Source of the DNA: Halegenticoccus soli
GTDB taxonomy: Archaea > Halobacteriota > Halobacteria > Halobacteriales > Haloferacaceae
Assembly: GCF_002844195.1 (NCBI RefSeq)
Contig: NZ_PEND01000002.1
Coordinates: 372,001-436,000 of the forward strand
Direction of reading: 5' to 3'
DNA: 64,000 nucleotides
The position numbers and the translations under genes were made by a program. Shown here one piece after another: positions 18,971-23,722 of the stretch. The notes beneath the pieces were generated by a model. That model saw nothing but the letters and a program-made list of their open reading frames with translations, did not search any database and was not told the origin of the DNA. Position 1 is the first letter of the stretch. Every line of letters begins with the position of its first letter.

Positions 18971-19912
18971 TTACCGAAGCCGGCTCACGTCGGAGAGCAC
19001 CGCGGTCGCCGTCTCCGGCCCGCCCGCGCCGCGTCCGCTGATGTTCAGTCGGCCGGCGTTGGTCGTCTCCAGCTGGACGATGTTCCGCGTCCCCGTCACG
19101 GCGAGCGTTCCGTTCTGCGGGATCAACCGCGGGCCGACCCGGACGCCCTCTGGCGTCGCCTCGCCGATGAGTCGGACGGTCTGGCCGTCCTCGGCGGCCA
19201 GTTCGAGCGCGCTTCCGGGGATGTCGCGGATCCCCCGAACTTCGGCGTCGGCGAGGCTGTGTCCCCCGTCGCCGAGGACGTTCGCGAGGATGACGCACTT
19301 GAGCGCGGCGTCGGTCCCGTCCACGTCGAACGTCGGATCGGCCTCCGCGACGCCGAGATCCTGCGCCTCCGCGAGGACGTGCTCGTACCCGAGCCCCTCG
19401 GCGGCCATCCGCGAGAGGACGAAATTCGCCGTCCCGTTGAGAACGCCGCGGGCCGCGGTGATGTGGTCGGGTCCGAAGTCGCGGATCGCCGAGAGCACCG
19501 GGATCGCGCCGCCGACCGTCGCCTCGAAGAGCACCGACCCCGCGCTGTCGCGTTCGAGATCGCGCACGTCGTCGTACCGCTCGGCGACGGGTCCCTTGTT
19601 CGCCAACACGACGTGCCGGTCGGCTTCGAGCGCTGCCCGGACGTGCGAGAAGCCGGGCTCCGCGTCGCCGAGCGTCGTCGGCGTCGCCTCGACCAGCACG
19701 TCGGACGCCGCCGTCAGCGCGTCCGCGGGGGCCGCGTCGCCCACGGTCCCCTCCCGCTCCTTTCGCGCGAGCACCGCCTCGGGGTCGACCCCGTCGGGAT
19801 CGATCGCGGCGCTTTCCGAGTCCGCGACCGCCGTCACCGTGTGGCCGTACTCGCCCGCCAGTTCGACGACGGAGCGGCCCACCGCCCCCACGCCGAGCAC
19901 CGCGAGCTTCAC
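18971..19912 (-). CDS. hom: Homoserine dehydrogenase
   Basis: 313 residues. Reduces aspartate-semialdehyde to homoserine for threonine and methionine synthesis. The N-terminal Rossmann motif GVGAVG is at residues 7-12, and the catalytic-domain signature LNGTANFVL is present. I chose the GTG at 19912: it overlaps the upstream ACT gene's stop (GTGA) and has a GGAGG eight bases upstream. It lacks a C-terminal ACT domain. The separate ACT protein encoded just upstream is the likely source of allosteric feedback. Confidence 0.93.
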   Translation of the reverse strand: MKLAVLGVGAVGRSVVELAGEYGHTVTAVADSESAAIDPDGVDPEAVLARKEREGTVGDAAPADALTAASDVLVEATPTTLGDAEPGFSHVRAALEADRHVVLANKGPVAERYDDVRDLERDSAGSVLFEATVGGAIPVLSAIRDFGPDHITAARGVLNGTANFVLSRMAAEGLGYEHVLAEAQDLGVAEADPTFDVDGTDAALKCVILANVLGDGGHSLADAEVRGIRDIPGSALELAAEDGQTVRLIGEATPEGVRVGPRLIPQNGTLAVTGTRNIVQLETTNAGRLNISGRGAGGPETATAVLSDVSRLR

Positions 19913-20493
19913 GGCGATCCCTCCGAGAGCGGCTCGACCACGTGCAGCCCCTTCTCGGCGGCGATGTCGCGGACGATTCCGACGGCCCGCTGTGCCCGCC
20001 CCTCGCGGGCGGCGAGGCGCACCCGGGCGCTCGACGTGTCGTCCGTCCCCTGCGGCGCGGACAGCGACAGGTCGATCACCGAGGCGTCCGAGCACTCCTC
20101 GATGCGGCGGAGCGTGTCGGAGAGGTCGGAGTCGATGAGGTGACCGGTCAGGAGGACCGTCACCTCCTCGCCGTACCGCTCCGCGTCGGCCTGAATGACG
20201 TTGACCCCGCGGTCGCGGAGCGCGTCGACGATCGCCTCGAACCGCTCCGGCGGGCACTCCAGGTCGACCTCGACGGGGATGCGCCCGCGCGGCGTGATGT
20301 TGCCGCGCTCGTGGAAGATCGACAGGAGGTTCCCGCCGTTCTCGGCGATCGGTCGCAGCGCCCCGAGCAGCTGTCCCGGCTCGTCGATCAGCTCCAGACG
20401 GATCGTGTGGGTCTGGGACTCCCCCCCGTCCGTCTCGGGTTCGCCCCGGGCGACGCCGGAGGACGCCGGCGTCGGCCCGCCGATTTCGGTCAT
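19909..20493 (-). CDS. ACT-domain amino-acid-binding regulator
   Basis: 194 residues. After an acidic leader of about 28 residues come two ACT-like domains. The first starts IRLELIDEPGQLLGALRPIAENGGNLLSI in pattern, a classic ACT beginning. ACT domains bind amino acids, and gene overlap with hom suggests feedback by threonine or methionine. The start at 20493 has the ribosome-binding sequence GGAGGTG five bases upstream, and it overlaps the stop of a short upstream ORF (ATGA). The binding specificity is inferred only from context. Confidence 0.85.
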   Translation of the reverse strand: MTEIGGPTPASSGVARGEPETDGGESQTHTIRLELIDEPGQLLGALRPIAENGGNLLSIFHERGNITPRGRIPVEVDLECPPERFEAIVDALRDRGVNVIQADAERYGEEVTVLLTGHLIDSDLSDTLRRIEECSDASVIDLSLSAPQGTDDTSSARVRLAAREGRAQRAVGIVRDIAAEKGLHVVEPLSEGSP

Positions 20494-20594
20494 CGGTGCA
20501 CCTCCGTGGCACGCGCGGTCCCTGTTGTCGGCGCGGAGCGGTCGAAGCGTGGCTCCGCGCCGATGCGAGTCGGGGTGTGCGTGCCCGTCTGCAT
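20490..20594 (-). CDS. Putative threonine-rich leader peptide of the ACT-hom operon
   Basis: A 34-codon ORF, beginning MQTGTHTPTR, with 8 threonines (positions 3, 5, 7, 9, 24, 25, 27, 31). Its stop TGA overlaps the ACT gene's ATG by four bases. A TATA box 25-31 bases upstream makes this the first ORF on a near-leaderless mRNA. Codons 11-22 hold an 11-bp perfect hairpin. The make-up recalls thr attenuation leaders of bacteria. The reading as a leader peptide is inference; in GC-rich DNA a short chance ORF is possible. It is in a different frame, so it is not an N-terminal extension of the ACT protein. Confidence 0.5.
   Translation of the reverse strand: MQTGTHTPTRIGAEPRFDRSAPTTGTARATEVHR
20529..20562 (-). 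promoter_or_regulatory. 11-bp hairpin in the hom operon leader
   Basis: cggcgcggagc (20529-20539) and gctccgcgccg (20552-20562) are perfect inverted repeats with a 12-base loop. On the minus-strand RNA the hairpin starts just after the first cluster of four Thr codons. It ends just before the next two Thr codons, and the ACT ribosome-binding site follows 23 bases later. It could be an attenuator or a translational switch. Confidence 0.6.
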
Positions 20595-20618
20595 GTTACG
20601 CACCTCTCGTCGCTGCCG

Positions 20619-20625
20619 CTATAAG
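20619..20625 (-). promoter_or_regulatory. TATA box of the ACT-hom operon
   Basis: Minus-strand CTTATAG, 25-31 bases upstream of the leader-ORF ATG at 20594. The expected transcription start falls at or within about five bases of that ATG, leaving the ACT gene with a leader of about 100 bases. Confidence 0.6.
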
Positions 20626-20770: not shown

Positions 20771-22096
20771 ATGGGGGAACTCGGTCTGAAGGAGGCCGTA
20801 GCGATGGCGCTGGGCGGCATGATCGGTGGCGGCATCTACTCCGCCTTCGGCATCGTCGTGGCCATCTCCGGGACGCTCGCGTGGTTCGCGTTCCTCCTCG
20901 CGGGCGCCGTCGCCATGTGCGCGGGGTACAGCTACGTGAAGCTGAACGAACTCGTCGAGGGCAACGGCGGCGCGCCGACGTACATCTCCGCGTTCGTGGG
21001 CAATTCAACCCTCGCCGGCATGACCGGCTGGACGCTGCTCTTCGGATACATCGGGTCGATGGCCCTGTACGCCTACGCGTTCTCGTCGTTCTTCTCGGAG
21101 CTCGTCGGTCGGCTCCACGTCGGCGGCGTTCCGGTCGCGAACGCCGTCTCGGTGCTTCTGATCGCCGTCTTCGTCGGGCTCAACCTGCTGGGGGCCGCCG
21201 AAACCGGCAAAGCCGAGGACGTGCTCACCTTCTTCAAGATCGCCGTCATCGGCGTCTTCGGCGTCTGGGGCGTCTGGTTCGCCTTCAACGGCCACGCGCT
21301 CTCGTTCGGCGTCTCCCGGATCAGCTTCACCCCGATCGTCGGCGCGGCGATGTCGTTCGTCGCCTTTCAGGGGTGGCAGCTCCTGATGTACGACCAGGGG
21401 CAGTTCGAGAACCCTCGGGACGACATCCGAAAGGCGATCTACGTTTCGATCCCCGCGGCGACGCTCCTGTACGTCCTCGTCGCGCTCACCACGGTGAGCC
21501 TGCTCGAAATCGCCGTGATCTCCGTCTCCCCGGAGGTGTCGCTGCTGTACGCCGGGCTGCAGTTCATGGGGAGGATCGGCGCGTTCGTCATCGGCCTCTC
21601 GGCGCTGTTTTCGACGGCGAGCGCGGTCAACGCGACGCTTTTCAGCAGTGCGCTGTTCTCGCGCGATCTGATAGCCATGGGGCTGATGCCCGAGTGGGCC
21701 GGTTCGGGAACCGATTCGGCCTCGAACGGCGACGACCGGGGGATTCCGAAGAAGATCGTGATCGTCCTCGGGATCCTGTCGGCGGCGTTCGCCGTCTTCG
21801 GCAGCCTCCGGAGCATCACCTCGTTCGCCTCCCTCGCGTTTATCGCCGTGTTCGGGGGGATGAGCTACCTCGCGTACGCGAACCGCGACGAAATCGACCT
21901 GCTCTCGCCCGTGCCGCTCTTCGGGTTGATCGGCTGCGCCGCGTTCTTCCCGCTGCTCCTGTACAGCCTCTACATCGACGATCCGACGACGCTCGCGCTC
22001 GTGTTGCTCATCGCGGCGCTCGTCGTCGGCACTGAACTGCTGTACTTCGAGCGGGAACCGGTCGAGGAAGCGCTCCCGTGGATGGAGAGAAAGTGA
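20771..22096 (+). CDS. APC-superfamily amino-acid permease
   Basis: 441 residues with about 12 hydrophobic segments. The first helix has GGMIGGGIYSAFG, the helix-1 break sequence of APC transporters that binds the amino-acid carboxyl group. The length is normal. It is divergent from the ACT-hom operon (176 bases between starts) and followed 18 bases later by a solute-binding protein gene, with which it is probably cotranscribed. The substrate is unknown; an amino acid linked to the hom pathway is only a contextual guess. Confidence 0.9.
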   Translation: MGELGLKEAVAMALGGMIGGGIYSAFGIVVAISGTLAWFAFLLAGAVAMCAGYSYVKLNELVEGNGGAPTYISAFVGNSTLAGMTGWTLLFGYIGSMALYAYAFSSFFSELVGRLHVGGVPVANAVSVLLIAVFVGLNLLGAAETGKAEDVLTFFKIAVIGVFGVWGVWFAFNGHALSFGVSRISFTPIVGAAMSFVAFQGWQLLMYDQGQFENPRDDIRKAIYVSIPAATLLYVLVALTTVSLLEIAVISVSPEVSLLYAGLQFMGRIGAFVIGLSALFSTASAVNATLFSSALFSRDLIAMGLMPEWAGSGTDSASNGDDRGIPKKIVIVLGILSAAFAVFGSLRSITSFASLAFIAVFGGMSYLAYANRDEIDLLSPVPLFGLIGCAAFFPLLLYSLYIDDPTTLALVLLIAALVVGTELLYFEREPVEEALPWMERK

Positions 22097-22114: not shown

Positions 22115-23722
22115 ATGTCCGACGACACAACCTCACCGATGCGACTGACGCGACGTAACGCGCTGAAAGGATTCGGCGCTGCGGCCGCCGCGGCGTCGTC
22201 CGCCGGCTGCGCGGCGGTCTCCGGCCGAGCGTCGAAAAAGCGGATGCGCTACGCGCAGGTCCTCCCGCCGCTCACGCTCGATCCGATCGTCGTCCGCGAG
22301 CCGTGGTCCGGACAGGCGGCCTCGCTGGTGTTCGAGGGCCTGTACACCTACGACTGGGAGATGAACCCCGTCCCGCTCCTCGCCGAGGGGAAACCGAACG
22401 TCTCCGACGGCGGCACGACCTACGCCGTGACGCTCGCGGAGGGCGCCGCGTTCCACGACGGCACCCCGGTCACAGCCGAGGACGTGAAGTACACCTTCGA
22501 GGCGCCCGAACGCGAGGAGTCGGCCAACCGGTGGCGGACGGAGATGATCTCAGAGATCAGGACGCCGGACGAGCGGACGGTCGAGTTCTCCCTGGCGTAT
22601 CCCTACCCGGCGTTCCGCCACTCGCTCACGCTCCCGATCGTGCCGAAGGCGATCCGCGAGGAATCGCCCGGACAGTTCGGCTTCGAGAACCCGGTCGGAA
22701 CCGGCCCGTACAGCGTCGAGGTGTTCAAACGGGGCGAGCGCGCGCTGTTGAAACGACACCGGAACTACTGGCGCGGCGTCGAACCGGCGATCGAAGCGGT
22801 GACGTTCGTCGCCAACCACGCGGGGCTCTCGCGGACGATGAGCCTCAAGACCGGGCAGAACGATGTCGTCGAGCGGATCGAGGCGAAGCTGTGGGACGCG
22901 ACGAAGAAGTTCCCGGACTCGCGGGTCGTTTCGACGCCCAGTTACCACTCGTTTTACCTCGGGTTCAACGTCACCGACGGTCCGACGTCGAACCCCCGGG
23001 TGCGCGAGGCGGTCGATTACCTGTTCACGATGGACGACTTCGTCCGGAACGACGTCGCTCCGGGGGGCGCACGGCAGCACGGGCCGGTGCCGGACCGCCT
23101 CGCCGAGCGGTGGGGACTGCCGCTCGACGAGTGGAAGGAGATCCCGCGCCGGGAGAACGTCCGGAAGGCGAAGCGGATCTTCGAGGAGGAGGGGGTCGAG
23201 GGCTGGTCGCCGAAGGTCGCCGTTCCGGGGACGAAAAGCTCCGGCGACAAGCTCCGGGAAAAGCTCGCCGAAACCGTCGTCTACGGGCTGAAGCGGGCCG
23301 GATTCAGGACCGCACGGACGGAGAAGTACGAGTGGTCGAAGTTCCACGGGAAGACCACCTCCGGGAACAGGCGGGACTACGCGATGTTCGTCGGCTCCTG
23401 GCCCGGCGCTCCCGACCCCGACGCGTACTTCTACCCCCTGTTCCACGAGAACATGCAGGGGATCACGAACGGGACCTACTACAACCGCGAGGCGGTCATG
23501 CGGCGGATCGACGAGGCGCGACGGACGCAAAACCGGAAGAAGCGCCGGCACCTGTACGCGAGGGCGGGCACGACGCTGCTCGAAGACCGGGTGGTCCTCC
23601 CCGCGTTCACGCTCGACAACAGCTTCGGCGTGAAGAACCGCGTGAAGGGCTTCCGCCCGCACCCGGACGCGAAACTGAACCCGCGGCTCGTCTCCCCGGA
23701 CGGATCCGTCTCGCTCCGCTGA
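22115..23722 (+). CDS. Family 5 solute-binding lipoprotein (oligopeptide/nickel type)
   Basis: 535 residues. The N-terminus has a twin-arginine motif (LTRRNALKG) and a lipobox ending SSAGC, with Cys32 the likely lipidated residue, so it is a Tat-exported lipoprotein. The body matches SBP family 5: LYTYDWEMNPVPLLA, then FHDGTPVTAEDVKYT and a long C-terminal lobe. Such proteins normally feed an ABC importer with two permeases and two ATPases; none of these genes is here. It directly follows an APC permease instead. Confidence 0.92.
   Translation: MSDDTTSPMRLTRRNALKGFGAAAAAASSAGCAAVSGRASKKRMRYAQVLPPLTLDPIVVREPWSGQAASLVFEGLYTYDWEMNPVPLLAEGKPNVSDGGTTYAVTLAEGAAFHDGTPVTAEDVKYTFEAPEREESANRWRTEMISEIRTPDERTVEFSLAYPYPAFRHSLTLPIVPKAIREESPGQFGFENPVGTGPYSVEVFKRGERALLKRHRNYWRGVEPAIEAVTFVANHAGLSRTMSLKTGQNDVVERIEAKLWDATKKFPDSRVVSTPSYHSFYLGFNVTDGPTSNPRVREAVDYLFTMDDFVRNDVAPGGARQHGPVPDRLAERWGLPLDEWKEIPRRENVRKAKRIFEEEGVEGWSPKVAVPGTKSSGDKLREKLAETVVYGLKRAGFRTARTEKYEWSKFHGKTTSGNRRDYAMFVGSWPGAPDPDAYFYPLFHENMQGITNGTYYNREAVMRRIDEARRTQNRKKRRHLYARAGTTLLEDRVVLPAFTLDNSFGVKNRVKGFRPHPDAKLNPRLVSPDGSVSLR

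Follow-up and report, generated by a model that had tools for sequence, protein, structure and literature searches.

A conserved leader ORF preceding the ACT-homoserine dehydrogenase operon of haloarchaea, a candidate threonine-responsive translational attenuator in two families

The operon for an ACT-domain protein and homoserine dehydrogenase (ACT-hom) of Halegenticoccus soli is preceded by a threonine-rich leader ORF. The observation is confirmed, and the leader is strongly conserved among haloarchaea. It looks like an archaeal version of the leader-peptide control of amino-acid synthesis known from bacteria. In the reading that we prefer, the leader is translated from a leaderless transcript, is coupled to the ACT gene by termination and reinitiation, and acts in Haloferacaceae and Halobacteriaceae as a translational attenuator that responds to threonine, and perhaps isoleucine; we put its probability at slightly below one half. 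Threonine-responsive attenuation is a plausible and partly supported interpretation, and the direction of regulation given below is hypothetical.

Organization of the leader and the hom operon

The window analysed is a stretch of 64,000 nucleotides from contig NZ_PEND01000002.1, in which the leader, the ACT gene and hom lie on the minus strand (Table 1). The original prediction described an ORF of 34 codons including eight Thr codons, and both its length and the Thr count match the sequence, the Thr codons being numbers 3, 5, 7, 9, 23, 24, 26 and 30. The TATA box that had been placed 25-31 bases before the leader ATG was found there, with the first T of TTATA at −30 relative to the A of the ATG. 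Likewise, the Shine-Dalgarno (SD) sequence GGAGGTG inside the leader and the ATGA shared by the leader stop and the ACT start are where they were described, and the ACT gene in turn overlaps hom by 4 nt (GTGA, 19912-19909, minus strand). The predicted hairpin is also present, but its size and extent needed correction from 11 bp over codons 11-22 to 12 bp, with a loop of 12 nt, spanning codons 11-23. By its PF00742 match hom is a threonine-pathway gene, which places the Thr-rich leader upstream of a gene of the matching pathway. An amino-acid permease gene (PF13520, window 20771-22096, plus strand) is divergent from the leader and shares the intergenic region with it; a gene for a family 5 solute-binding protein (22115-23722) comes next after the permease gene.

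Table 1. Features of the leader and the ACT-hom operon in the window
Feature	Position in window	Strand	Basis
TATA element CTTATAG	20619..20625	-	sequence; 25-31 nt 5' of leader ATG
Leader ORF, 34 codons + TGA, MQTGTHTPTRIGAEPRFDRSAPTTGTARATEVHR	20490..20594	-	ATG to TGA; counterparts in 159/175 haloarchaeal loci
P1 5' strand GGCACGC, leader nt 10-16	20579..20585	-	covariation with 20508-20514
P2 5' arm TCGGCGCGGAGC (P2 pairs leader nt 32-43 with 56-67)	20552..20563	-	covariation
P2 3' arm GCTCCGCGCCGA	20528..20539	-	compensatory changes
Codons 23-24, ACA ACA (Thr-Thr), adjoining P2 on its 3' side; proposed to exert control	20523..20528	-	cluster comparison
P1 3' strand GCGTGCC, leader nt 81-87, just 5' of SD	20508..20514	-	covariation
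SD GGAGGTG for ACT gene, within leader ORF	20499..20505	-	sequence
ATGA, leader stop/ACT start overlap (−4)	20490..20493	-	sequence
ACT-domain protein gene, 194 aa	19909..20493	-	PF01842
hom, homoserine dehydrogenase, 313 aa, GTG start	18971..19912	-	PF00742 and NCBIfam homoserine dehydrogenase models

Conservation of the leader ORF and its overlap with the ACT gene

ACT-hom loci were gathered from named genomes and from family- and order-level genome searches, which gave 175 distinct loci; the names used for the numbered families (f1, f7, f12 etc.) are our own assignment from the named loci. A 5' mini-ORF with a stop codon that overlaps or abuts the ACT start was found at 159 of the 175 loci and in 10 of the 11 families sampled, under a loose overlap criterion (−11 to +3) by which a few of the short-form assignments could be due to chance. 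None of the 13 loci of family f17 has a leader ORF, and in most of them a TATA box stands at the leaderless distance from the ACT gene itself; f17 loci such as L265-L274, L199 and L210 form a natural comparison group. Outside f17 the mini-ORF is present at 159 of 162 distinct loci. Two of the three misses (L156 and L243) are failures of pattern detection, the ORF or its relatives being visible by eye, and at the third (L262) the ACT gene is leaderless.

The mini-ORF comprises 7-18 codons in most families and mostly 33-70 codons in Haloferacaceae (f1) and Halobacteriaceae (f12). Its spacing from the ACT gene is −4 at most loci, −8 in most of Natrialbaceae (f7) and TAG|ATG in Halobaculum. Leaders of the Halorubrum type range from 17 to 67 codons in 18 distinct lengths, all of them in frame and all with the overlap retained; insertions and deletions that preserve the frame in this way lend indirect support to a dependence of ACT translation on that of the leader. 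Reading frames shifted by +1 or +2 end at the ACT start in 4 of 354 cases. An SD-like motif occurs in 175 of 177 leaders. Of 111 long-form leaders, 89 have the first T of TTATA at −30, and most short forms have it between −28 and −30. A TATA box 30 nt before the leader ATG predicts a transcript start at or next to this ATG, i.e. a leaderless transcript. Together, the retention of ORF, frame, TATA spacing, SD and overlap is the pattern expected from selection for translation through the leader up to the ACT start.

The original prediction had allowed for a chance origin of the ORF. This no longer holds, since the same layout recurs 5' of the ACT gene across haloarchaea as against 2 of 84 ilvB, trpE and thrC loci of the same family. 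A general haloarchaeal device on biosynthetic operons was considered as well and was rejected on the same 2 of 84. The comparison across haloarchaeal hom operons that had been proposed as a check found the ORF, its frame, the overlap, the hairpin and the Thr cluster all kept. Two further arrangements were seen in the course of these searches. Locus L288 has a lone leaderless-type ORF of 20 codons (MQYTTRQRPTNRHRPTENYR) located 140 nt 5' of the ilvB match, with a 4-nt ilvB overlap, which is absent from the other 27 genomes. Genome G267 carries tandem ACT genes (L222 and L223, ca. 2.3 kb apart), each with its own short leader ORF and ATGA overlap.

Reinitiation at the ACT gene, as originally suggested, is the natural reading of this arrangement; experiments in Haloferax have shown that −4 overlaps couple translation (PMC6728339, PMC10666635), with a steep dependence on distance (PMC10666635). 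Such coupling may be all that the leader does. A leaderless mini-ORF would then feed an SD-dependent ACT start and set stoichiometry without sensing any amino acid, and the RNA fold described below would tune efficiency or mRNA stability. Most families indeed have leaders of 7-18 codons, which leave no space for the fold and mostly show no Thr excess, while the ATG, SD and overlap are retained. Three Halorubrum leaders (L112, L127 and L131; 17-22 codons) lost the hairpin by in-frame shortening and kept the Thr codons, the SD and the overlap. A function in coupling alone does not explain why a covarying fold and a Thr/Ile cluster are kept in two families, nor why the layout is so rare at ilvB, trpE and thrC, and we judge it unlikely.

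A covarying RNA fold within the leader

The folding energy of the leader RNA is −55.1 kcal/mol, compared to −42.6 kcal/mol for dinucleotide shuffles (z −3.4, 1/200). The long-form leaders share a common fold in which a second helix, P1, which the original prediction did not include, closes over the hairpin P2. In a set of 19 diverse leaders the covariation score at the P1/P2 register was 0.237 against 0.139 (sd 0.012) for shuffled alignments, with 9 of 19 pairs doubly changed, including 5 of the 7 pairs of P1; at slid registers covariation was far lower. P1 was confirmed on a larger set of 48 model matches, in which the score was 0.218 against 0.114 (sd 0.009) and 17 of 19 pairs were doubly changed; because the structure itself guided this alignment, and because a few of its sequences match on the opposite strand, the 19-leader set is the cleaner test. 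In L024 and L164, P2 changes in a compensatory manner from UCGGCA/UGCCGA to UCGACA/UGUCGA. Such changes switch both encoded amino acids together, as in GGC..CCG to GAC..TCG. RNAalifold run by itself on a mixed alignment recovered part of P2 but not P1, so that the case for P1 is built on explicit pair counts. The hairpin is absent in the three Halorubrum leaders and in a few other genera.

When 60 genomes of the family were searched with the model, ACT-hom was the sole site of the element and all else consisted of weak matches due to chance; the one apparent second copy, in G166, falls inside an aroE-like gene and was discarded as chance. Rfam 15 gave no match at the locus at E values up to 1, and none over the window at gathering thresholds. 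The covariation is clear, and the P1/P2 element has no counterpart in Rfam.

Inverted repeats this close to a promoter could also be DNA operator sites for a transcription factor acting just 3' of it, and P2 is a nearly perfect palindrome less than 100 bp from the promoter. However, the arms of P1 are ca. 65 nt apart and covary as well, certain fixed positions admit mismatches and internal loops, and operator sites would leave both the frame constraint and the Thr/Ile codons unaccounted for. This makes an operator function very improbable.

Threonine and isoleucine codons

Thr makes up 14.3% of codons in the leader frame, whereas position-specific composition predicts 9.5% and the two shifted frames have 6.1% and 8.7%. 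The enrichment is concentrated behind P2. Among the AU-rich codons at positions 21-29, 97 encode Thr and 42 Ile, together 139 of 174 (80%), against 27% Thr plus Ile elsewhere, counts that come from sequences related to one another. Nearly all leaders in a diverse set of 49 have their first in-frame ACA within codons 22-26, a position that is tied to the conserved ORF frame and is thus not independent evidence. ACA is the usual codon of the cluster, but accounts for none of the 32 Thr codons of the ACT gene and hom in the window. In several genera the cluster also includes Ile codons, which goes beyond the original prediction. The cluster peptides are PTT in the core genera, PITII in Haloplanus and Halobaculum, and TSTTII or STITVIL in others; the consecutive codons are ACA ACA in most core genera and ATT ACA ATT ATT in Haloplanus and Halobaculum, and Halorubrum has a single ACA. 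Thr is only modestly enriched in the leaders of Haloferax (12%) and Halobellus (10%).

Families without the hairpin retain the coupling ORF, mostly without extra Thr, another finding beyond the original prediction. Families f4, f5, f6 and f14 show no Thr excess, and in f7 Thr codons occur at positions 2-3 in the absence of a hairpin. These Natrialbaceae leaders (L109, L141 and L235-L248) comprise 14-18 codons, often read MTTCGRP..GGDGDG, overlap the ACT gene by 8 nt (ATGGGTGA), and have ACG ACG at codons 2-3; they have no hairpin, yet are conserved.

Across the leaders, nucleotide identity is 0.79 at the first codon position, 0.74 at the second and 0.77 at the third, i.e. there is no relaxation at the wobble position. 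The absence of wobble periodicity means that the RNA and the reading frame are conserved rather than the peptide. The frame has been retained over long evolutionary distances, as it would be if the leader encoded a functional microprotein. In that case the missing periodicity and the variation in length from 7 to 70 codons would be difficult to understand; all long-form groups are basic (K+R exceeding D+E), which is unusual among haloarchaeal soluble proteins, and no NCBIfam model matched. We regard a microprotein as extremely unlikely.

Conservation at the RNA level without third-position relaxation would also fit a cis-acting RNA in which P1/P2 binds a ligand, e.g. threonine, or a regulatory protein, e.g. 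the ACT protein, and thereby gates the 5' AUG, the ORF serving for coupling and the Thr codons being incidental. Loop positions such as C-N-A-C are kept though the encoded amino acid changes, P1 closes the domain beside the SD as in many riboswitches, and the fold looks modular, as if inserted into a mini-ORF that is short without it. On the other hand, the fold lies within a translated frame and would be disrupted by each passing ribosome, the Thr/Ile specificity of the cluster behind P2 would be left without explanation, and no Rfam family matches. A binding RNA of this kind appears rather unlikely to us. It is, along with a leader that does no more than couple translation, one of the two main rivals of the attenuator, and each is compatible with much of the data.

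Proposed mechanism of translational attenuation

The attenuator reading draws on the comparative support for the ORF, its frame, the overlap, the TATA spacing, the fold and the Thr/Ile cluster; from these we infer the leaderless transcript, reinitiation at the ACT gene, and the threonine response with its direction. Ribosomes would load on the AUG at the extreme 5' end of the mRNA and translate the leader. They would stop at the UGA, which shares bases with the ACT start, and reinitiate at this start, aided by the SD within the leader, and hom would be coupled to the ACT gene by the same overlap route. The input to control would be charged tRNA-Thr, and possibly tRNA-Ile. When threonine is scarce, a ribosome dwelling at the ACA codons would cover the 3' arm of P2 and block closure of P1 and P2, and the open fold would leave the 5' AUG and the SD region accessible to further ribosomes. 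When threonine is plentiful, passage would be fast and the fold would shut behind each ribosome, throttling entry; since P1 starts at a distance of 9 nt from the 5' end, its formation would be in competition with ribosome loading. Slower translation of the leader alone would lower coupled expression, which means that the proposed direction needs such an RNA gate.

The original interpretation of the leader is partly supported. The conservation of ORF, frame, hairpin and Thr cluster upholds an attenuation reading, but the idea that ribosome speed on the Thr codons sets folding or output was not borne out by folding calculations, in which neither the SD nor the 5' end became consistently more or less accessible when the ACA codons or codon 5 were masked by a ribosome. 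Two anti-SD sequences were examined and rejected as the switching element. One in the linker between P1 and P2 fits by eye in several species but had a mean z of −0.18 against shuffles, with 4 of 56 significant, and when SDs were swapped between species it displayed only slight specificity. The other, in the 3' arm of P2, had a mean z of 0.06 and no specificity. No T-run follows P1 or P2 in the sequence and no conserved pairing competes for the SD, so neither a U-tract terminator nor an alternative structure was found.

If the attenuator reading holds, its design would be distinct: a leaderless ORF with Thr/Ile codons controlling a covarying RNA gate at the 5' end, with obligatory termination-reinitiation as output. 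In Haloferacaceae and Halobacteriaceae it may have arisen through the incorporation of an RNA module into an older coupling mini-ORF that most haloarchaea have. We advance this reading tentatively, with the odds leaning somewhat against it.

Comparison with known systems

In E. coli, threonine-pathway genes are preceded by thrL, a leader peptide gene in which Thr and Ile codons lie next to an RNA hairpin. Control is exerted through intrinsic termination of transcription, the leader having alternative hairpins, a U-tract and its own SD. Thr/Ile leader codons beside a hairpin before threonine-pathway genes are common to both systems, whereas termination, alternative hairpins, the U-tract and a leader SD are absent from the haloarchaeal locus, where the leader ORF instead overlaps the first gene.

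The closest described system, in the account of PMC9031893, which cites Canestrari et al. 2020, is that of the leaderless polycysteine short ORFs of mycobacteria. As described there, a leaderless 5'-terminal short ORF precedes an amino-acid-related operon, as is predicted here, and contains codons for the controlling amino acid, with elongation speed proposed to set downstream translation. The mycobacterial ORFs are bacterial, Cys-specific and have runs of Cys codons (PMC9031893); the present ones are archaeal, have Thr and Ile codons, a two-helix covarying fold and a nearly invariant overlap.

With the −4 overlaps studied in Haloferax and E. coli the leader has in common the ATGA and an SD inside the upstream ORF, and for coupling a short 3' region of the upstream gene suffices, 15 nt in E. 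coli (PMC6728339, PMC10666635). Those overlaps join ordinary gene pairs, whereas the upstream partner here is a leader of 7-70 codons at the predicted 5' end of the transcript, with a fold embedded in it in two families. Leaderless transcripts predominate in Haloferax, making up 72% of its protein-coding transcripts (PMC4983044). The uORFs reported for Haloferax volcanii are also short ORFs before archaeal genes, but they encode 15-31 aa with low isoelectric points and lie inside 5'-UTRs of 150-250 nt (PMC4983044), whereas the leaders described here are predicted to be 5'-terminal, are basic and overlap the next gene.

Implications

The original prediction knew of no archaeal counterpart, and our search, which covered mainly the open literature and is not proof of absence, likewise found no archaeal leader-peptide attenuator of amino-acid synthesis. 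If the proposed mechanism is true, archaea would possess leader-peptide control of amino-acid synthesis. According to the Haloferax start-site study, haloarchaea do not typically control translation through structured leaders (PMC4983044); the present leader would be a case of such control. Such control would be built on leaderless initiation and termination-reinitiation, not on a bacterial terminator. Haloferax species carry the leader element, which makes the group tractable. Should threonine sensing prove wrong, ACT-hom would still be preceded by a near-universal coupling ORF that is predicted to be leaderless, and there would still be, judging from its covariation, a new RNA element without an Rfam match.
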